Source: Bacilli bacterium (GTDB lineage: Bacteria > Bacillota_I > Bacilli_A > ML615J-28 > CAG-698). Taken from it: DNA of 21,666 bases. Under the pieces are notes generated by a model. The model saw only the letters and a program-made list of their open reading frames with translations, did not search any database and had not been told where the DNA came from. Positions 2,263 through 20,459 of the stretch are shown here, one piece after another. The first letter of the stretch is position 1. Each line of letters begins with the position of its first letter. Location: the NCBI GenBank assembly GCA_028693885.1, contig JAQUUM010000003.1, positions 1 through 21,666 of the forward strand, in the 5' to 3' direction. A program made the position numbers and the translations under genes.

Positions 2263-2283
2263 AGTAAAATGATTTTTAATAAC

Positions 2284-2312
2284 TTGTAAAAACATGCTAA
2301 ATATGGTAAAAT
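2284..2312 (+). promoter_or_regulatory. Predicted promoter of the 71-residue repeat protein gene
   Basis: TTGTAA at 2284-2289, a 17-bp spacer, and TAAAAT at 2307-2312 preceded by TGG, which gives an extended -10 (TGGTAAAAT). The start codon at 2339 follows an AAAGGTGA ribosome site at 2327-2334. It was found by eye, but spacing and extended -10 are both good. Confidence 0.55.
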
Positions 2313-2338
2313 AAGATATATTATTTAAAGGTGAAAGT

Positions 2339-4510
2339 ATGGAAAAATTAGATCAAGAGATTTTACAATTATATCTAAAACAAGAAACAATTAATTTCTT
2401 TCCGAAAACTAGTCTTACGGTTAGATACTTAGATCAAATCAAAGAACTTAATGAATATTATAATTCTTTATCAGAAGATGATAAAGAATCTATTAGTAAT
2501 CAAAACATTCTTGAAAAATTGTTAGAGTTAAGGGAAAAGATTTTAGGGGAGTATAATTTAATTGAAAGCAAAGAAGAAGCCTTAAAGTTTGATGAAAAGA
2601 TTTTAGAATGTAGAGATGCAAAAAGTACTAATCATACTTGGTTTTATCGTGTTAGAAAATTAGCTGCGGATTATGATAAATTAGAAGATAGTGTTAAAAA
2701 AATGTGTATTAATAAGTGGATTATTGATTCAATGCTTAAAGAGATAAGCGACTATGAAAAAAGTGTGGCTTTTGATCAACTTAAAAAAGAAGCAGTTGTT
2801 TTTGACAAAAGAATTTTAGATTTAAAAAAGAATAAAAATGATTCTCTAGATTGGGTAGAAAATGTTAAAGAAACAATTGAAGACTTTGAGGTTTTAGCTT
2901 TGCCTGTTAAAGAGTTGTTAGAAAAAAATTCAATTTTAATTACTTTAAGACAAGAAGCATTTGAGTTTGAAGAACGTATTAATAATAAAGAGTTTTTAAA
3001 AGCAGCAAATGCTTTTGATAATAAAATAGCTGAACTTCAAAAAAATAAAGTTTGGACTCTAGATTGGTATCAAGAAGTTCAAGAATTAGAATCTGAATAT
3101 AAATATTTAAAAGCTGAAGTAAAAAACTTGCTTAAAAAAGAAGGTGTATTACTTACTTTGAAGCAAGAAGCTATTGAAGTATATGAATCTTTTAAAATGG
3201 AAAACATAAAAGATGAGGCCTTAAAGTTTGATGATTCAATTAAAGCATTAGAAAAAAATAAAAAACCTAATATTGAATGGGCTAATCAAGTTATTGATTT
3301 AGATAGAGAATTTAGTTCTCTTGAAAGTTTAGAAAAAGATGTTATTAAACAAGTAGCAACTCTTGCAACTTTAAAGCAAGAAGCTTTAGAAGTAATTGAT
3401 AAGTTTAAGAAAAACGATTATTACATGATGGCTAATGAATTTGATACTGCCGTTTTAACACTAGATAAAAACAGAGCTTTGACTTCTTCTTGGGCAAGTG
3501 CAGTTGTTGCTTTAGAAGAAAAATATAACAGTTTTGAAAATATAGCTAAAAATTTAGTTAAAGAATATGGGAAACTGATTAATTTAAAGCAAGAAGCAAT
3601 TTCAATTAAAAGCAGAATAAAATTTGGTGAAAAGAATGAGATTGCGATGAAGTTTGATGATAAAGTAAGTGATACTTTAAAAAACAAAACTTCTTCAGAG
3701 GAATGGATAAAAGAAGTAGAAGATTTAGAAATAGAATATAATAGTTTAGATGAAAGTATAAAAGAGTTAGTTACCAAAGCATTGGTTTTATCAGAGTTGA
3801 AAAATCAAGCTCGTGAAGTAAAACATCTTTTAGATTTTTATAAGACTAAAGCAACTGCCATTACATTTGATCAAAAGCTGATTAAATGTAAAGAACATAA
3901 AAGTTTTTCACTTGAATGGTATGAAGAGGTCATGGCTTTAGAAAAAGAATATAAAGCTTTAAGTTTAATAGTTAAAGAAGTCCTAGATAATAAAGGAATG
4001 ATTGAAACATTAAAACATGATGCTTTTGAAATTAGAAAACAAATTTTTGATAATAACTATAAACAAATTGCTAATGAAATTGATAATAAGATTACTAATT
4101 GTGAGAAACGTTATCAAAAAACTGAAGAATGGATAAAAGAAGTAGAAGAACTTAAAAAAATGTTTGATGGATTGAGTTTAGAAATTAAAGCTTTTTGTAC
4201 AAAAACTAAATTGCTTGATTTTTTAATAGAAGAAACAAAAATTATTAAGAAAGCAAAAGCAATTGCGGTTTTAGAAAATAAAGCTAGTGTACTTGATAAT
4301 GAAATAATTGCTTTGTGTGATAAAGTTTCAAAAGAAGAACCTTTGTATAAACAAATGTTACACATGCAAGATGTATTAGAAAGTACTGCTAAAGAAGTAT
4401 TAGATTATTTAGTTAATAAAAAAATATTTGAAACCACTTTAGTGAAAAGTTTTAAATTCAATCGTAAAAAAGAAAAAAACGAAGCTAAAAGAAATAAAAA
4501 GAATAACTAA
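2339..4510 (+). CDS. Uncharacterised cytoplasmic protein of ten tandem 71-residue repeats
   Basis: I do not recognise a named family. The 723-residue protein is almost wholly made of tandem units. Units 2 to 9 (residues 81-648) are each exactly 71 residues with no gaps; a diverged unit 1 fits residues 10-80 and a last, diverged unit runs from 649 into a basic lysine-rich tail. Position by position, most units have Ala at 1, Phe-Asp at 4-5, Trp at 21 (units 2-9; Tyr in unit 1, Leu in unit 10), Val at 25, Tyr or Phe near 32, Lys at 40, and Leu-Lys-Gln-Glu-Ala around 52-56. Heavy Lys/Glu/Leu content and almost no proline suggest alpha-helical bundles in a long rod. There is no signal peptide, lipobox or membrane segment, so it is probably cytoplasmic. 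It is a single-gene unit with its own promoter and terminator. A structural, scaffolding or DNA/RNA-associated role is possible, but nothing in the sequence decides it. Confidence 0.85.
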   Translation: MEKLDQEILQLYLKQETINFFPKTSLTVRYLDQIKELNEYYNSLSEDDKESISNQNILEKLLELREKILGEYNLIESKEEALKFDEKILECRDAKSTNHTWFYRVRKLAADYDKLEDSVKKMCINKWIIDSMLKEISDYEKSVAFDQLKKEAVVFDKRILDLKKNKNDSLDWVENVKETIEDFEVLALPVKELLEKNSILITLRQEAFEFEERINNKEFLKAANAFDNKIAELQKNKVWTLDWYQEVQELESEYKYLKAEVKNLLKKEGVLLTLKQEAIEVYESFKMENIKDEALKFDDSIKALEKNKKPNIEWANQVIDLDREFSSLESLEKDVIKQVATLATLKQEALEVIDKFKKNDYYMMANEFDTAVLTLDKNRALTSSWASAVVALEEKYNSFENIAKNLVKEYGKLINLKQEAISIKSRIKFGEKNEIAMKFDDKVSDTLKNKTSSEEWIKEVEDLEIEYNSLDESIKELVTKALVLSELKNQAREVKHLLDFYKTKATAITFDQKLIKCKEHKSFSLEWYEEVMALEKEYKALSLIVKEVLDNKGMIETLKHDAFEIRKQIFDNNYKQIANEIDNKITNCEKRYQKTEEWIKEVEELKKMFDGLSLEIKAFCTKTKLLDFLIEETKIIKKAKAIAVLENKASVLDNEIIALCDKVSKEEPLYKQMLHMQDVLESTAKEVLDYLVNKKIFETTLVKSFKFNRKKEKNEAKRNKKNN
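2579..4282 (+). repeat. Eight in-frame 213-bp tandem coding repeats
   Basis: Eight consecutive units of exactly 213 bp (71 codons) begin at 2579, 2792, 3005, 3218, 3431, 3644, 3857 and 4070. Each starts with a codon for Ala followed two codons later by Phe-Asp or Ile-Asp, and each has TGG (Trp) as codon 21. The DNA of the units has diverged strongly, so the repetition is clear at protein level only, which implies old duplications kept by selection. Confidence 0.88.
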
Positions 4511-4512
4511 TC

Positions 4513-4549
4513 AAAAAAGCGTCTATTTAATTTAAATAGATGCTTTTTA
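4513..4549 (+). terminator. Rho-independent terminator after the repeat protein gene
   Basis: Inverted repeat AAAAAGCGTCTATTTA / TAAATAGATGCTTTTT with one G-T pair and a two-base centre, ending in a T run. The A run on the left makes it plausible in both directions. Confidence 0.8.
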
Positions 4550-4610
4550 AAATAGAAAATTAAAGTAAAAAAAAGTAGAAATATTAATATATATATGAGA
4601 GGTAAGTTTT

Positions 4611-14233: not shown

Positions 14234-15412
14234 ATGAAAAAATTGTTGGTTATTTTAGTTATGTTAGTAAGTGTTTTTACTCTTTCTGCTTGTCAAAAAG
14301 AATCAGAAACAATTCGTTTTGCATCAATTGGTCCTTTAACTGGTCAAGTATCAGTTTATGGAAATGCTGTAAAAGAAGGAATTGAATTAGCTGTTGAAGA
14401 AATTAATGCAGCTGGTGGAATCACTTTAGAAGGGGGAGTTAAAAAATTAGTTTCTTTTGAAATGTTAGATGATGAACACGATGGTGATAATGCAAAAGCT
14501 GCTTTTAACACTTTGAATAGTAAAGGAATTGATGTATTATTAGGTGCTGTTACATCTGCTCCAACTGAAGCTGTTATTGGTGAGGCAATTAAGACTGGTG
14601 TCCCTATGATTACACCTACTGCAACTGCAGATCATATTACTGTTGGAAATCCTGCAAATCGTGCTGCTCGTAGCAATGTATTTAGAGCTTGTTTCTTTGA
14701 TTCTTTCCAAGGTCAAGTTATGGCAAATTTTGCTGCTACATCATTAACTGATGTTGAAAGTGTTGCGATTCTTTATAATAGTTCTGATGCATATTCAACT
14801 GGTTTGAAAGATGCATTTGTTGCTAAAGCTGCAGCTCTTGATTTAAATACAACTGCAATTGCTTATACAAGTGGAACTTCTGATTTCTCATCTCAAGTTA
14901 TTCAAGTTACAAGTGGATCATTTGGTGCTGTATTTATTCCTGATTATTACGAAGCTGCTGCAAATATCTTAACTACATTACGTGGTGCTGGATATACTGC
15001 TCCTTGTCTAGGTGTTGATGGATGGGATGGAGTTTTAGAACAATTTGCAACAACTGTTGACAAAGCCGTTCTAGAAAATTGCTATTTCTCAAATCATTAT
15101 GCTACAGATGATACATCTGCAAAAGTTCAAAGTTTTATTACTGCTTATGAAGCAAAATATAGTAAAACTCCAAATGCTTTAGCAGTGCTTGGATATGATG
15201 CTGCTTACATTGCAAAAGCTGCAATTGAAGAAGCTGGGTCTGTTGATTATGAAGCTGTTATCGCTGCATTAAATACTATTACTGTAGATGCTGTTACTGG
15301 TAATATTACATATGATGATAACGGTAATCCAATTAAGAATGCTGCAATTATTACATTTGATAGCGAAAATGACTATGCTTTAAAATTCCATTTAAGCGGT
15401 ACTTCTGAATAA
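14234..15412 (+). CDS. livJ: Branched-chain amino acid type ABC transporter, lipoprotein substrate-binding protein
   Basis: Extracytoplasmic receptor of a HAAT-family importer. A type II signal peptide with lipobox LSAC puts the lipidated cysteine at residue 20. The mature part begins RFASIGPLTGQVSVYG, typical of the periplasmic-binding fold type I Leu/Ile/Val/amide group, and continues with ELAVEEINAAGG, LLGAVTSAPTEA and a C-terminal LGYDAAYIAKAAI segment. The 392 residues are the usual size. It is the first gene of the liv cluster, expected because the receptor is needed in excess; a hairpin after it probably lowers expression of the following genes. The true ligand is not decided by sequence: family members bind Leu/Ile/Val, but also urea, short amides or other amino acids. 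Confidence 0.93.
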   Translation: MKKLLVILVMLVSVFTLSACQKESETIRFASIGPLTGQVSVYGNAVKEGIELAVEEINAAGGITLEGGVKKLVSFEMLDDEHDGDNAKAAFNTLNSKGIDVLLGAVTSAPTEAVIGEAIKTGVPMITPTATADHITVGNPANRAARSNVFRACFFDSFQGQVMANFAATSLTDVESVAILYNSSDAYSTGLKDAFVAKAAALDLNTTAIAYTSGTSDFSSQVIQVTSGSFGAVFIPDYYEAAANILTTLRGAGYTAPCLGVDGWDGVLEQFATTVDKAVLENCYFSNHYATDDTSAKVQSFITAYEAKYSKTPNALAVLGYDAAYIAKAAIEEAGSVDYEAVIAALNTITVDAVTGNITYDDNGNPIKNAAIITFDSENDYALKFHLSGTSE

Positions 15413-15437
15413 TAGTAATCTGTATTAGATTTTAAAG

Positions 15438-15475
15438 AATAGAAACCTATTATTTAGGTTTCTATTTGTTTTTAT
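15438..15475 (+). terminator. Hairpin terminator/attenuator between livJ and livH
   Basis: AATAGAAACCTA (15438-15449), loop TTATT, TAGGTTTCTATT (15455-15466), then TGTTTTT. A perfect 12-bp stem. No clear promoter follows before livH, so it likely acts as partial termination within the operon. Confidence 0.82.
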
Positions 15476-15512
15476 AAAAACGTAAATTTTTTCAATAGAA
15501 AGGATAATCGAT

Positions 15513-16409
15513 ATGTTTGCTCAAAAATTTGTTGAGGGCTTAGTTGCGGGATTGCAAATAGGAAGTATATATGCATTGATTGCGCTGGGTTATACAATGG
15601 TTTATGGGATCGTAAAACTAATAAATTTTGCACATGGTGAAATTATAATGATAGGTGCTTTTGTGGCACTGGCAATGTCTAATTTAATTGGAGCTAATCC
15701 TTTTACAATGATAATTAGTATGATTGCCTCAAGTGTAGTTTGTGCATTAGTTGCAATATTAGTTGAAAAGATTGCATATAAACCTTTAAGAAATTTAAAA
15801 AGAATTACTTCCTTAATCACGGCGATTGCAATGAGTTACTTAATTCAAAACGTTTTTATGTTGATTGAAGAAAATCAGCAAACCTCCCCAAGTTTTATTA
15901 AGTTTCCAAGAGTTAATTTTGGAAATGCATCAGTTGATTTATACACTACCTTATTTACGGTAGGTGTTTCAATTCTACTAATGGTAGGTTTGATGGTTTT
16001 TGTTAAAAAAACAAGAATAGGAAAATCAATGAGAGCAGTTTCTGAAAATATGGATGCTGCGAAATTGATGGGTGTAAATGTTAATACTACAATCTCAATT
16101 ACTTTTGCATTAGGAGCTGTGCTTGCAGCAATTGGAGCGTATTTCTATTGCTTAAGAATCCCTTTCTTTAAGTATACGTTTGGTTCTATTGACATTGGAA
16201 TAAAACCATTCGTTGCAGCAGTAGTTGGTGGAATCGGAAGTTTCCCTGGTGCTATGATTGGTGGATATGTAATCGGAATGATTGAATCACTAATCGGAGT
16301 TACTGAAATAAGTAAATGGAAAGACGTTTTTGTATTTGGTATTTTAATCACCGTATTAGTAGTTAAACCAGAGGGTATTTTTGGTAAAAATGTCGGTCAT
16401 AAGGTGTAA
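15513..16409 (+). CDS. livH: Branched-chain amino acid ABC transporter permease LivH
   Basis: One of two membrane permeases of the HAAT importer. The N-terminus GLQIGSIYALIALGYTMVYG and the following KLINFAHGEIIMIGAF are the family hallmark. About eight hydrophobic segments can be seen. The cytoplasmic loop AVSENMDAAKLMGVNVN is the ATPase contact region, and the C-terminal GGIGSFPGAMIGGY is also typical. At 298 residues the length is normal. AAAGGA precedes the ATG. livM starts one base after its stop. Confidence 0.95.
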   Translation: MFAQKFVEGLVAGLQIGSIYALIALGYTMVYGIVKLINFAHGEIIMIGAFVALAMSNLIGANPFTMIISMIASSVVCALVAILVEKIAYKPLRNLKRITSLITAIAMSYLIQNVFMLIEENQQTSPSFIKFPRVNFGNASVDLYTTLFTVGVSILLMVGLMVFVKKTRIGKSMRAVSENMDAAKLMGVNVNTTISITFALGAVLAAIGAYFYCLRIPFFKYTFGSIDIGIKPFVAAVVGGIGSFPGAMIGGYVIGMIESLIGVTEISKWKDVFVFGILITVLVVKPEGIFGKNVGHKV

Positions 16410-16410
16410 T

Positions 16411-17583
16411 ATGATGAATGAAAACATACAAAATGTGAACGTTTCAAATAGGAAAAGAATCTTAAAAAAATACTTAATTAACTCAAGTGTTGTATTAGGT
16501 GTTTTGATTTTATTATCTATATTAGGTAATGATAATCCTTCAGTTTTAAGAAACTTAATAATTTTAGCATCAATTAATATTATAGCGGCTGTTTCACTTA
16601 ATTTAATGAGTGGTAGTTTGGGTGAATTAGTTTTAGGTCATGCAGGGTTTATGTTAACAGGCGCATATGCGGCTGGTATCTTTACTAAAGCATGGCAAGT
16701 ATCAGATCAGTTAATGATAAGATTTGTAATGCAGCCAGCTGGGTATTTACAAGTATTATTAGCGGTTATAGTTGCAGGTCTTGTTGCAGCATTATTAGGC
16801 TTTTTAATTTCAATACCTTTCTTAAGATTAAAAGGTGATTATTTAGCAATCGTTACTTTAGGTTTTACTCTAATTATGGTAACTATAGCTAATAATATGC
16901 CTATGTCTCCTGATTCAGGATGGTATACAAGTAGTTCGCAAGGACTACTTGGTGTGCAAAACTTACTTGAGATAAATGCATTTATGGCAGTTGCCTTGAT
17001 GATAATTTGTGTGACTGTTATTATTCTATTTATTACATCAAGACACGGGCGTGCAATTCTTGCAATTAGAGAAGACTATATTGCAGCTGAAGCATCAGGT
17101 ATAAAAGTTTCTAAATATAAAGTAATTACTTTTGTTATATCAGCTTTTTTTGCTGGTGTTGCTGGTGGTGTCTATGCATTTTATAATAACGTCACTCCTA
17201 CAAGTTTTTCTTTTGAAAAATCAATTGAAATCTTGGTTATGGTAGTGCTTGGTGGACTTGGTTCTTATACTGGTTCTATACTTTCTGCATTTACTTTAAC
17301 TGCTTTACCTATTATGTTACTTAATTTTTCGAGATATCAAAAATTAGTATATGCCGTAATTTTATTAATCGTTATGTTAGTTAAACCAACCGGACTATTT
17401 GGAACAAAAGAGTTTAGTTGGAAAGCATTAAAAGAATCACCAAAAAGCTTTATGGAATGGCTTAAAGCATTACCAAAGAATGTTTCAACTGGATTTAAAA
17501 AATTAATTAAAAGAATTAAAAATACCTTTAAAAAACGTTCAAAAGTAGTTGTTAAAGGAGGTAATGCAGATGTCAAAAAATAA
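16411..17583 (+). CDS. livM: Branched-chain amino acid ABC transporter permease LivM
   Basis: Partner permease of LivH. Family marks are NLIILASINIIAAVSLNLMS, SLGELVLGHAGFMLTGAY, the RLKGDYLAIVTLGF loop, the ATPase-contact AIREDYIAAEASGIKVSKYK, and VLGGLGSYTGSILSA. The start at ATG 16411 lies behind AAGGTG at 16401-16406; ATG 16414 is equally possible, and the longer upstream frame (to 16381) overlaps livH without a ribosome site. Near 390 residues, it ends in a basic, lysine-rich tail of about 50 residues after the last membrane helix (through LKESPKSFMEW and RIKNTFKKRSK), longer than I would expect for the family. Its end overlaps livG by 14 bases. Confidence 0.94.
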   Translation: MMNENIQNVNVSNRKRILKKYLINSSVVLGVLILLSILGNDNPSVLRNLIILASINIIAAVSLNLMSGSLGELVLGHAGFMLTGAYAAGIFTKAWQVSDQLMIRFVMQPAGYLQVLLAVIVAGLVAALLGFLISIPFLRLKGDYLAIVTLGFTLIMVTIANNMPMSPDSGWYTSSSQGLLGVQNLLEINAFMAVALMIICVTVIILFITSRHGRAILAIREDYIAAEASGIKVSKYKVITFVISAFFAGVAGGVYAFYNNVTPTSFSFEKSIEILVMVVLGGLGSYTGSILSAFTLTALPIMLLNFSRYQKLVYAVILLIVMLVKPTGLFGTKEFSWKALKESPKSFMEWLKALPKNVSTGFKKLIKRIKNTFKKRSKVVVKGGNADVKK

Positions 17584-18352
17584 AGAACTTGTTTTAGAAA
17601 CAAAAGATTTAGAAATTAGCTTTGGTGGCCTTCAAGCAGTTAAAGATTTAAATATTAAAATTTATGAAAAAGAATTGGTTGGCTTAATTGGTCCAAATGG
17701 GGCTGGTAAAACTACTGTCTTTAATTTAATAACTGGAGTTTATAAAGCAACTGGAGGGTCTATTTATTTGTGTGGAGAAAGTATGCTTAACAAACTAACT
17801 CATGAAAGAGTTGGTAAGGGTATTACTAGAACTTTTCAAAATATAAGGTTGTTTAAAAACTTAACTGTTTTAGAAAATGTAAAAGTTGCTTGTAACATTA
17901 ATATGAAATATTCAATGTTAACAGGAATTTTAAGACTTCCTAAGTATTGGAAAGAAGAAAAAGAAATTGAAATAAAAGCATTAGAAATTTTAAAGGTTTT
18001 TGGCCTTGATACTTATGCTGAATATCAAGCTTGTAATCTACCTTATGGTAAACAAAGAAAGTTAGAGATTGCTCGTGCTTTAGCATCAAATCCTAAACTT
18101 ATTTTATTAGATGAACCCGCTGCTGGAATGAATCCAACTGAAACTCAGGAGTTAATGGATACAATAAGTATCATCAGAGATAAGTTTAATGTTACTATTC
18201 TTTTAATCGAACATGATATGAAATTAGTAATGGGTATTTGCGAGAGAATTTATGTATTAAATTATGGCCAATTAATCGCAAGTGGGACTCCTAAAGAAGT
18301 TGCTCATAATGAAAAAGTTGTTACTGCATATCTTGGGACTGGAGAAATATAA
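17570..18352 (+). CDS. livG: Branched-chain amino acid ABC transporter ATP-binding protein LivG
   Basis: Cytoplasmic ATPase that drives the LivHM permease together with LivF. Walker A is GPNGAGKTT, the family's altered signature is LPYGKQRKLEIARAL, Walker B is LILLDEPAAGMNP, and the switch histidine is in IEHDMKLVM. GITRTFQNIRLF marks the Q-loop region. There are 260 residues, as expected. ATG 17570 was chosen because AAAGGAGGT (17554-17562) is seven bases upstream; the ATG at 17564 is too close to it. It overlaps the livM end by 14 bases, so the two are translationally coupled. Confidence 0.96.
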   Translation: MSKNKELVLETKDLEISFGGLQAVKDLNIKIYEKELVGLIGPNGAGKTTVFNLITGVYKATGGSIYLCGESMLNKLTHERVGKGITRTFQNIRLFKNLTVLENVKVACNINMKYSMLTGILRLPKYWKEEKEIEIKALEILKVFGLDTYAEYQACNLPYGKQRKLEIARALASNPKLILLDEPAAGMNPTETQELMDTISIIRDKFNVTILLIEHDMKLVMGICERIYVLNYGQLIASGTPKEVAHNEKVVTAYLGTGEI

Positions 18353-18353
18353 T

Positions 18354-19088
18354 ATGGCAAGATATATATTAAAAGTTAAAGATATAAGTGTTAGTTATGG
18401 AGCTACTATTAGAGCTATTCATAATGTTAGTGTTGATATAAAAGAAGGTAAAATTGTAGCTTTCATTGGAGCTAATGGGGCTGGTAAAACTACTATCTTA
18501 AAAACAATTTCAGGTTTACTTAGGCCAACAAGTGGAGATATTCATTGGTTAAAAGAAGATGGAACAATTCTAGATTTAAGAAAAATAGAACCACATGAAA
18601 TTTTAAAGCTAGGGATGGCGCATGTTCCAGAAGGAAGGCAAGTATTTGCTAACCTTACTGTTCAAGAAAATCTTGAAATGGGAGCATATACTGTTAAAGA
18701 TAAAAAAGTTATTGAAGATAATATGTGTAAGATGTATGAAAAATTTCCAAGATTAGCAGAAAGAAAAAAACAACTTGCAGGGACTCTATCAGGTGGAGAA
18801 CAACAAATGCTTGCGATTGCAAGAGCTTTGATGAGTAATCCAAAAATTTTATTGTTGGATGAACCATCAATGGGGCTTTCTCCAATTCTAGTGGCGGAGG
18901 TTTTTGAAATTATTCAAACTATTAAAAAAATGGGAACTACCATTTTAATAGTTGAACAAAATGCTCGTATGGCTTTATCAATTGCAAATTATGCTTATGT
19001 TTTAGAAACGGGTAGAATAGTAATGCAAGGCGATGCTAAGGAATTGCTTGAAAATGATGAAGTAAGAAAAGCATATCTAGGAGCTTAA
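18354..19088 (+). CDS. livF: Branched-chain amino acid ABC transporter ATP-binding protein LivF
   Basis: Second ATPase of the HAAT importer. Walker A GANGAGKTT, MAHVPEGRQVFANLTVQENL around the Q-loop region, signature LSGGEQQMLAIARAL, Walker B ILLLDEPSMGLSP and switch histidine position replaced by Gln in VEQNARMAL, which is normal for LivF. There are 244 residues. ATG 18354 follows the livG stop by one base with GGAGA at 18341-18345; the upstream frame to 18282 lies inside livG and was rejected. It is the last gene of the operon and is followed by a strong hairpin. Confidence 0.96.
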   Translation: MARYILKVKDISVSYGATIRAIHNVSVDIKEGKIVAFIGANGAGKTTILKTISGLLRPTSGDIHWLKEDGTILDLRKIEPHEILKLGMAHVPEGRQVFANLTVQENLEMGAYTVKDKKVIEDNMCKMYEKFPRLAERKKQLAGTLSGGEQQMLAIARALMSNPKILLLDEPSMGLSPILVAEVFEIIQTIKKMGTTILIVEQNARMALSIANYAYVLETGRIVMQGDAKELLENDEVRKAYLGA

Positions 19089-19167: not shown

Positions 19168-19740
19168 ATGAGAACTAATTTTAAAAGCAGATTACCTGTT
19201 ATTGAAACTGAAAGATTAATTATTAGAGAAATTGAGGCAATAGATGCTGAAGATTTCTATGAGTATGGTAAAATAGTAAGTGTAGGTGATGCTGCTGGTT
19301 GGGAAGCGCATTTTAGTAAATATGATAGTAAAATGAGAATTGAGATAATGCGTAAAAAAAGTGATCCGAATTATTTAGGATTGTTTAGTATTATTTTAAA
19401 ATCAGAAAGTAAAATGATTGGTACAGTTGAACTACATAGTTATTTGCCTAAATTTAAAGCTGAGTTAGGTTATACAGTTAATCCTAGATATTGGGGTAAT
19501 TCATATGCAGTAGAAGCAAGTAAAACTTTATTAAAATGGGGGTTTGAAGATTTAGGTTTAAAAAGGATTGAATGTTCTTGTTATTTAGATAATTTACAGT
19601 CAATGAAAGTTTGTGAGAAATTGCTTTTTACAAACGAAGGTATTAAAAAAAGAGGTTATATAAATTTCAAAGGTGAATGTGTTGATATAATGACTTATGC
19701 ACTTACGATAGATGAGTATTATGAGAGGTATAAAAAATGA
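19168..19740 (+). CDS. GNAT family N-acetyltransferase (RimJ/RimL-like)
   Basis: An acetyl-CoA dependent transferase of the Acetyltransf_3 type, the group containing the ribosomal protein acetylases RimJ and RimL and many enzymes of unknown substrate. Visible are the N-terminal ETERLIIREIEAIDAEDFYEY, the beta strands up to GTVELH, the acetyl-CoA binding region ELGYTVNPRYWGNSYAVEAS, and the C-terminal RIECSCYLDNLQSMKVCEKL followed by NEGIKKRGYINFKG. It is 190 residues long. ATG 19168 is preferred to GTG 19159 because AGGTG at 19157-19161 lies six bases upstream of it. Its TGA stop overlaps the ATG of the protease gene (ATGA), so the two are coupled. The substrate cannot be told from the sequence. 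Confidence 0.88.
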   Translation: MRTNFKSRLPVIETERLIIREIEAIDAEDFYEYGKIVSVGDAAGWEAHFSKYDSKMRIEIMRKKSDPNYLGLFSIILKSESKMIGTVELHSYLPKFKAELGYTVNPRYWGNSYAVEASKTLLKWGFEDLGLKRIECSCYLDNLQSMKVCEKLLFTNEGIKKRGYINFKGECVDIMTYALTIDEYYERYKK

Positions 19741-20459
19741 AAAAAATCTTAATATTAGTTTCTTTTTTGTTTATATTAAGTGGTTGCGATTTCTTTAATG
19801 AAGCTTTTTCTAATACTGTCCCTATGGCCAGTATTAATGAAATTAGTCAAAACATCATTAAGTCAAATTTAGAAATCACTGTAAAACCTTATACTCTTAA
19901 TCACGAAGAACAAAAAGTATATGATGATAATTATGTTAGTGGAAGTGCAGTAGTATATGATATTACTGCAGAAGACATTTTAATGATTACTAATCGTCAT
20001 GTGGCTTTACCTGGTGGAGTAAGCACTTGTGATTATTCTGTCCAAACAGTTAATGGGACAGAAGCTGATGCTAGATATGTTTTTAGTTCTGATCTCTATG
20101 ACTTAGCAGTTATTGCGATTACTAAAACAGAAGAATTATTAGCTGAGGTAGAAGAAATTACTATGGCAGTTGAAAACGAGATAATGGGCGGGGTAGTATA
20201 TGCGATTGGTTCGCCATATGGGATGAATAATATTTTAACTGTAGGTAAGGTTTATAAATATAGTAATATTGATGAAGTAGATTTCCAAATAGTATTACAT
20301 ACTGCTCCAATTAATACAGGTAATAGCGGAGGAATGTTAATTAATAAAGATTATCAATTAGTCGGAGTAAATACATGGAGTGTTACAGTTAATGGAACAA
20401 CTTATAGTGGAGCTACGCCTATTGTTGAGGTTAATGCTTTCTTAGAATTAGTGCCTTAA
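19737..20459 (+). CDS. Secreted lipoprotein trypsin-like serine protease
   Basis: A surface-anchored serine protease. A type II signal peptide ends in lipobox LSGC (C17). The catalytic triad of the chymotrypsin/HtrA (S1C-like) fold is complete by motif: H88 in TNRHVA, D122 in DLYDLAVI and S197 in TGNSGG, with AIGSPYG before the serine region as in HtrA enzymes. At 240 residues the protein stops soon after the protease domain; the PDZ domains of HtrA/DegP are absent, and an N-terminal linker of about 50 residues separates the anchor from the domain. It may process or degrade proteins at the outer membrane face. It overlaps the acetyltransferase gene by four bases and ends before a strong hairpin. 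Confidence 0.88.
   Translation: MKKILILVSFLFILSGCDFFNEAFSNTVPMASINEISQNIIKSNLEITVKPYTLNHEEQKVYDDNYVSGSAVVYDITAEDILMITNRHVALPGGVSTCDYSVQTVNGTEADARYVFSSDLYDLAVIAITKTEELLAEVEEITMAVENEIMGGVVYAIGSPYGMNNILTVGKVYKYSNIDEVDFQIVLHTAPINTGNSGGMLINKDYQLVGVNTWSVTVNGTTYSGATPIVEVNAFLELVP

Follow-up and report, generated by a model that had tools for sequence, protein, structure and literature searches.

A leaderless array of exact 71-residue repeats, predicted to fold as three-helix bundles and probably forming a cytoplasmic rod, in a Bacilli bacterium

The spectrin repeat is a unit of three helices and about 100 amino acids (aa), the third helix (C) of which extends into the first (A) of the next unit, and the bacterial protein EzrA has an N-terminal membrane anchor. 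EzrA, a spectrin-like cell-division protein of Bacillus and Staphylococcus, is a linear array in the cytoplasm in which adjacent three-helix bundles share an unbroken helix, and its repeats, of about 100 aa, lack meaningful sequence homology to each other (PMC4243239). Outside the cell, the giant staphylococcal surface proteins Ebh and Embp carry a 125-aa repeat made of two small bundles that share a helix, include a short perpendicular helix and are rod-like in solution (PMC7587433). Here we describe a 723-aa repeat protein encoded in a 21,666-nucleotide stretch of Bacilli bacterium DNA (bases 1-21666 of contig C196, hereafter the window; the assembly is of 1.34 Mb and 86.5% complete). On balance, we consider it probable that this protein forms a stiff, spectrin-like rod in the cytoplasm, in which one divergent three-helix unit is followed by eight of exactly 71 residues each, and that the rod would serve as a passive spacer or scaffold.

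The periodicity of the protein is sharp. Among lags of 5-399 residues, the mean BLOSUM62 score was positive only at 71 and at multiples of 71 as far as 355 (1.06 at lag 71, followed by 142, 355, 213 and 284, with the next-best lag at -0.09), and the score at lag 71 lay 20 standard deviations above the mean of 1000 composition shuffles. Residues 81-648 stack as eight gapless blocks of 71 aa each, with no insertion or deletion. An earlier account of the gene, made from the letters alone (the sequence-only reading), had proposed ten such repeats; eight are indeed gapless and an acidic N-terminal unit is weakly detectable, but the tenth is undetectable, and the secure count is eight units plus one divergent N-terminal unit. 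In the window, the second match to the unit profile starts 57 residues after that of the divergent unit, and seven steps of 71 follow, spacing jitter being partly technical because the start of a match may shift with the alignment. The residues said to recur in phase do so: Ala1, Asp5, Trp21 and Val25 are invariant in all eight units and Phe4 is found in seven. Lys40, which that account had not named, is invariant as well. A Leu-Lys-Gln-Glu-Ala block proposed in the same account survives as Leu52 (7/8), Glu55 (6/8) and Ala56 (6/8), but the exact LKQEA string occurs in three of the eight units.

That the fixed length was held while the DNA diverged is also borne out. Mean pairwise identity among the eight units is 27.9% for the protein (16.9-38.0) and 50.2% for the DNA (41.8-57.3). 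Inter-unit identity at codon positions 1, 2 and 3 is 0.47, 0.59 and 0.45, against 0.31, 0.34 and 0.38 expected from composition. The excess is largest at position 2, then 1, and smallest at position 3, and therefore the protein is the level conserved. This pattern fits old duplications kept by selection on the protein.

A regular helical rod had been suggested for the array, and an AlphaFold2 model of two adjacent units agrees, with a mean predicted local distance difference test score of 91.3. The model consists of three-helix bundles joined by a continuous 39-residue helix (46-84); each unit is predicted to contain helices A, B and C, with a short helix between B and C, and with helix C running unbroken into the next helix A. 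We regard this modelled fold as well supported. A full-length structure model was discarded. The two-unit model has the layout of EzrA, with three-helix bundles in series and a helix that continues through the junction. Unlike the repeats of EzrA, however, the window units are alike in sequence; they also keep an exact length. The membrane anchor of EzrA has no counterpart in the window protein. Furthermore, the Pfam EzrA model was matched over its cut-off in none of the 43 genomes of the order, with three sub-threshold matches, none of them in the window's own genome. The suggested kinship with spectrin-like arrays holds for the layout of the model but not for the sequence: eukaryotic spectrin repeats are about 100 aa long (PMC4243239), against 71 here, no sequence match was seen, and the structural Z score lay below the level for a claim of homology. 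Ebh and Embp are exported, unlike the window protein. The N-terminal part of the S-layer protein SbsC (2ra1) likewise belongs to a surface protein, and its sequence gave no meaningful match.

Searches of curated families, as the sequence-only reading had anticipated, and of structures gave no convincing relative. In Pfam, at E-values up to 1, the lone match was Pullulanase_Ins (E 0.44); DUF349, a family that reading had named as a candidate, does not appear, and EzrA (PF06160), the spectrin repeat, FIVAR and GA were also unmatched. Neither NCBIfam nor PADLOC yielded a match to the protein, and PHROGs gave two weak ones (best E 0.054). A sequence search of solved structures with the whole protein found no match, while searches of the same structures with two unit profiles (A1 and A3, described below) returned chance-like helical matches only and no meaningful match to any chain, those of A3 being largely one cytochrome b562 stretch that recurs in many chains. 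Foldseek listed 49 matches at E up to 10 and none at 0.001; in a second look, Ebh, Embp and EzrA chains were not among the best 50 rows, which excludes nothing. There was no relative of the whole protein in viral contigs, plasmids or phages, and neither a match to the gene nor an orthologue in 27 other genomes of the window's family, so the repeat protein is a single-genome case.

However, the lack of a recognised family does not extend to the units themselves, which belong to a widespread, unnamed repeat of leader-bearing proteins. We searched 395 genomes of the class and 392 of the phylum, both sets drawn from larger groups. The profile of the window units (A1) matched those units eight times and six other genomes of the class weakly, once each, with single-unit E-values of 1.5e-4 to 7.1e-4 in the direct search. 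The first two of these matches to be read were arrays on GH18-like proteins, L083, which is cut at its 5' end with the leader unseen, and L091, whose leader is lipoprotein-like. A second profile (A3) combined five L091 units, its divergent first unit left out, with two of the four L083 units. A1 and A3 aligned collinearly and without gaps over 57 columns (hhalign, P 1.1e-6, score 34.6), against at most 15.4 for 100 column shuffles and 9.7 for the reversed profile. On the whole window frame A3 gave an E-value of 3.8e-11, and it matched one of the eight window units singly. The same profile defines the unnamed repeat in 33 of the 43 genomes of the order, including the window's own, where it matches two lipoprotein-like proteins, L160 (seven copies) and L161.

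Shared ancestry between the window units and the repeat of leader-bearing proteins is well supported by these profile comparisons. Convergence of helical, Lys/Glu-rich sequence could in principle imitate such a likeness, and the modest single-unit E-values, the mean identity of at most 24% between any other unit and the window units, and the selection effect that the A3 rows came from proteins already found by the window profile would all suit it. We nevertheless judge convergence very unlikely, as the gapless, collinear match of A1 and A3 stands far above both its controls, and the Tyr-Leu-Lys-Leu positions recur throughout. When nine window units were set beside 149 others, collected and aligned by means of a model to which the window units had contributed, Tyr/Phe32, Leu35 and Leu49 were near-universal in both sets and Lys40 was present in 116 of the 149. 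More broadly, Ala1, Ile8, Val/Ile25, Tyr32, Leu35, Lys40 and Leu49 are common to the array and the unnamed, presumed three-helix repeat of Acholeplasmatales and other members of the same class (for example L091/L220 and L160). The window units are nonetheless distinct, with Trp21 in place of Asp21 (107 of 146 others), Leu28 in place of Ala28 (85 of 149) and no Pro12 (present in 88 of 104), and a tree of 116 units groups the eight gapless ones of the window in a single clade (support 0.954). Leader-bearing repeat proteins also carry tandem arrays, of up to nine copies, but their spacing is irregular (mostly 45-74 residues, larger where copies were missed), whereas that of the window array is exactly 71. 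Unlike these relatives, the window protein is hardly anything but repeats.

The remaining A1 matches are of mixed quality. Two genomes, G328 and G329, hold repeat proteins that bear a leader or are cut (L092/L194 and L095/L187). The matches in G303 (a 184-aa lipoprotein-like open reading frame, ORF), G226 (an 87-aa helical ORF) and G482 (a frame lacking a start, next to lipoprotein-like and helical ORFs) are weak and could have arisen by chance, and that in G407 lies in a 34-aa frame with a stop. We did not find a Pfam model for the repeat, the significant Pfam matches of the parent proteins L091, L083 and L160 falling in other domains, and among the matches listed in open-licence full texts no title or abstract opening describes this repeat or an array of it that lacks a leader. 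Two arrangements recur among the leader-bearing proteins. Lipoprotein-like frames of 531-550 aa from several genera (L162, L163, L164, L165, L186, L205 and L206) have one or two repeat copies directly after the leader, and the GH18-like proteins L091/L220, L083/L219 and L167 have several copies ahead of the catalytic domain (GH18 by Pfam for L091 and L083 only).

A further feature that sets the window protein apart is its N-terminus. Our census comprised 66 open repeat frames from the order and class, the window's included, of which eight were cut at the 5' end; it covers fetched frames only, L216, L218 and a second repeat frame of G008:C21 falling below its threshold. Leaders were called from a hydropathy of at least 1.8 in residues 1-80 of the stop-to-stop frame and from reading of the N-termini, without a signal-peptide program. 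By this measure all 57 other frames whose 5' end is intact show a leader-like hydrophobic N-terminus, 34 of them with a lipobox-like pattern, and L174, one of the eight cut frames outside that count, also shows a leader. The window frame has no leader-like stretch (N-terminal hydropathy 0.30) and no membrane anchor (highest 19-residue hydropathy 1.08 over the whole frame), in agreement with the earlier claim that both a signal peptide and a membrane helix are absent. Nor can a leader be hidden upstream, because the frame opens at 2315, just eight codons ahead of the ATG, and AAAGGTGA, which may act as the ribosome-binding site, lies directly in front. Thus, by its sequence, the protein appears to be a member of the repeat family and not of the exported class.

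The same contrast could mean that this is a former surface lipoprotein whose leader was lost by mutation or rearrangement, leaving either a functionless relic or a protein that exits the cell without a leader. Such an origin would account for the leaders of all 57 comparable frames, for the retention of the seven-repeat L160 in the same genome and for a gene known from one genome only. However, the 723-codon frame is open and AAAGGTGA sits right before its ATG; the exact unit length at 28% identity, with codon positions 1 and 2 above 3, suggests long selection in the present form; and Trp21, the loss of Pro12 and a lysine content of 15%, compared with 6.8% in other repeat units, distinguish the array from the rest. 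Thus, we consider a relic or a leaderless export route unlikely.

For the cytoplasmic rod that we prefer, the units would descend from the repeat of leader-bearing, mostly lipoprotein-like, proteins found throughout the order. The array may have multiplied from one founder unit, with the repeat tuned to a fixed pitch and the export leader shed. It would then most likely act as a passive spacer or scaffold that sets a distance of approximately 23-35 nm, the acidic N-terminal unit and basic C-terminal tail perhaps docking to partners or to the cytoplasmic side of the membrane. The cellular location, rod length, end docking and role as scaffold or ruler are all put forward here as inference. The cell in question is probably wall-less, because no transpeptidase, MreB or EzrA was found in its genome (the lone MreB match, at 64 bits, belongs to an Hsp70 protein), although the assembly is only 86.5% complete. 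Across the order, 24 of 43 genomes have a transpeptidase match and 19, some of them incomplete, have none, and both states occur within the window's family; wall loss therefore looks patchy.

A bolder possibility, which we hold only tentatively, is that a bacterium lacking a wall, MreB and EzrA brought a spacer repeat from outside the cell into the cytoplasm and turned it into a regular, spectrin-like cytoskeletal rod or ruler. If true, a whole repeat family would have changed compartment, and bacteria would have evolved spectrin-like arrays of the cytoplasm a second time, independently. The protein would add a cytoplasmic case whose conserved sequence and exact length make it easily recognised and modelled, and it may show a surface spacer turning into an internal scaffold in a lineage apparently lacking a cell wall.

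Table 1. Features of the repeat-protein gene (window coordinates).
Feature	Position	Strand	Basis or remark
Repeat-protein gene	2339..4510	+	ORF, 723 aa; ATG start
AAAGGTGA, resembling a ribosome-binding site	2327..2334	+	Read in sequence, 4 bases ahead of ATG
Divergent N-terminal unit, aa 10-80	2366..2578	+	16 bits to unit profile, positions 17-54
Gapless unit 1/8, aa 81-151	2579..2791	+	Periodicity and stacking
Gapless unit 2/8, aa 152-222	2792..3004	+	Periodicity and stacking
Gapless unit 3/8, aa 223-293	3005..3217	+	First half of two-unit model
Gapless unit 4/8, aa 294-364	3218..3430	+	Second half of two-unit model
Gapless unit 5/8, aa 365-435	3431..3643	+	Sole unit matched singly by profile A3, E 9.7e-4
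Gapless unit 6/8, aa 436-506	3644..3856	+	Periodicity and stacking
Gapless unit 7/8, aa 507-577	3857..4069	+	Periodicity and stacking
Gapless unit 8/8, aa 578-648	4070..4282	+	Periodicity and stacking
C-terminal block, doubtful tenth unit, aa 649-702	4283..4444	+	2.2 bits to unit profile, not significant
Basic C-terminal tail, aa 703-723 (21 residues)	4445..4507	+	Net charge +8

The surroundings of the gene (Table 1) raise a further question of function. On one strand, the order is recD2, a 76-base gap, the repeat gene, a 100-base gap, comEA, comEC and holA, the last named by reading of its ORF. This close setting, together with the basic tail, which might touch DNA, could point to a role in DNA uptake or repair. 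RecD2 is present in 42 of the 43 genomes of the order, and we fetched the stretch downstream of its gene in 34 of them. None of the 34 stretches (L126-L159) has the repeat gene in this slot, which spans 2263-4610 of the window. comEA lies downstream of recD2 in 18; in the other 16 it was not reached or is not there. Within those 18 relatives, and with gene labels taken from reading N-termini, the recD2-comEA interval has no ORF of at least 110 aa in six, an inverted lipoprotein-like gene in five, a lipoprotein-like gene of 1.3-1.4 thousand aa in two, a pair of ATP-binding cassette (ABC) type with an inverted gene in two, and other genes in three. The interval is a variable slot in the order and, therefore, the position of the gene tells little about its function. 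A competence or repair role from position alone was rejected, and we rate any such role as improbable.

Several smaller observations concern the same region. A promoter-like site at 2284-2312 was rejected, as such sites, 64 in number against 58.7 expected from shuffles, show no excess. In a sister family, three genomes (L147, L151 and L152) have a lipoprotein-like gene with the repeat some 4 kb downstream of recD2, on the same strand and past three other ORFs. Within the window's own assembly, a contig-end piece (G000:C127:2-97) is 100% identical to residues 3-34 of the window RecD2, and is either an assembly overlap or a strain variant. Further along the window, a row of genes at 14234-19088 (+) resembles a branched-chain amino acid ABC importer, with a binding protein (Pfam Peripla_BP_6) and, by reading, two permease-like and two ATPase-like ORFs. 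Finally, the gene at 19737-20459 (+) encodes a Pfam Trypsin_2 protease domain after what reads as a lipoprotein-like leader.
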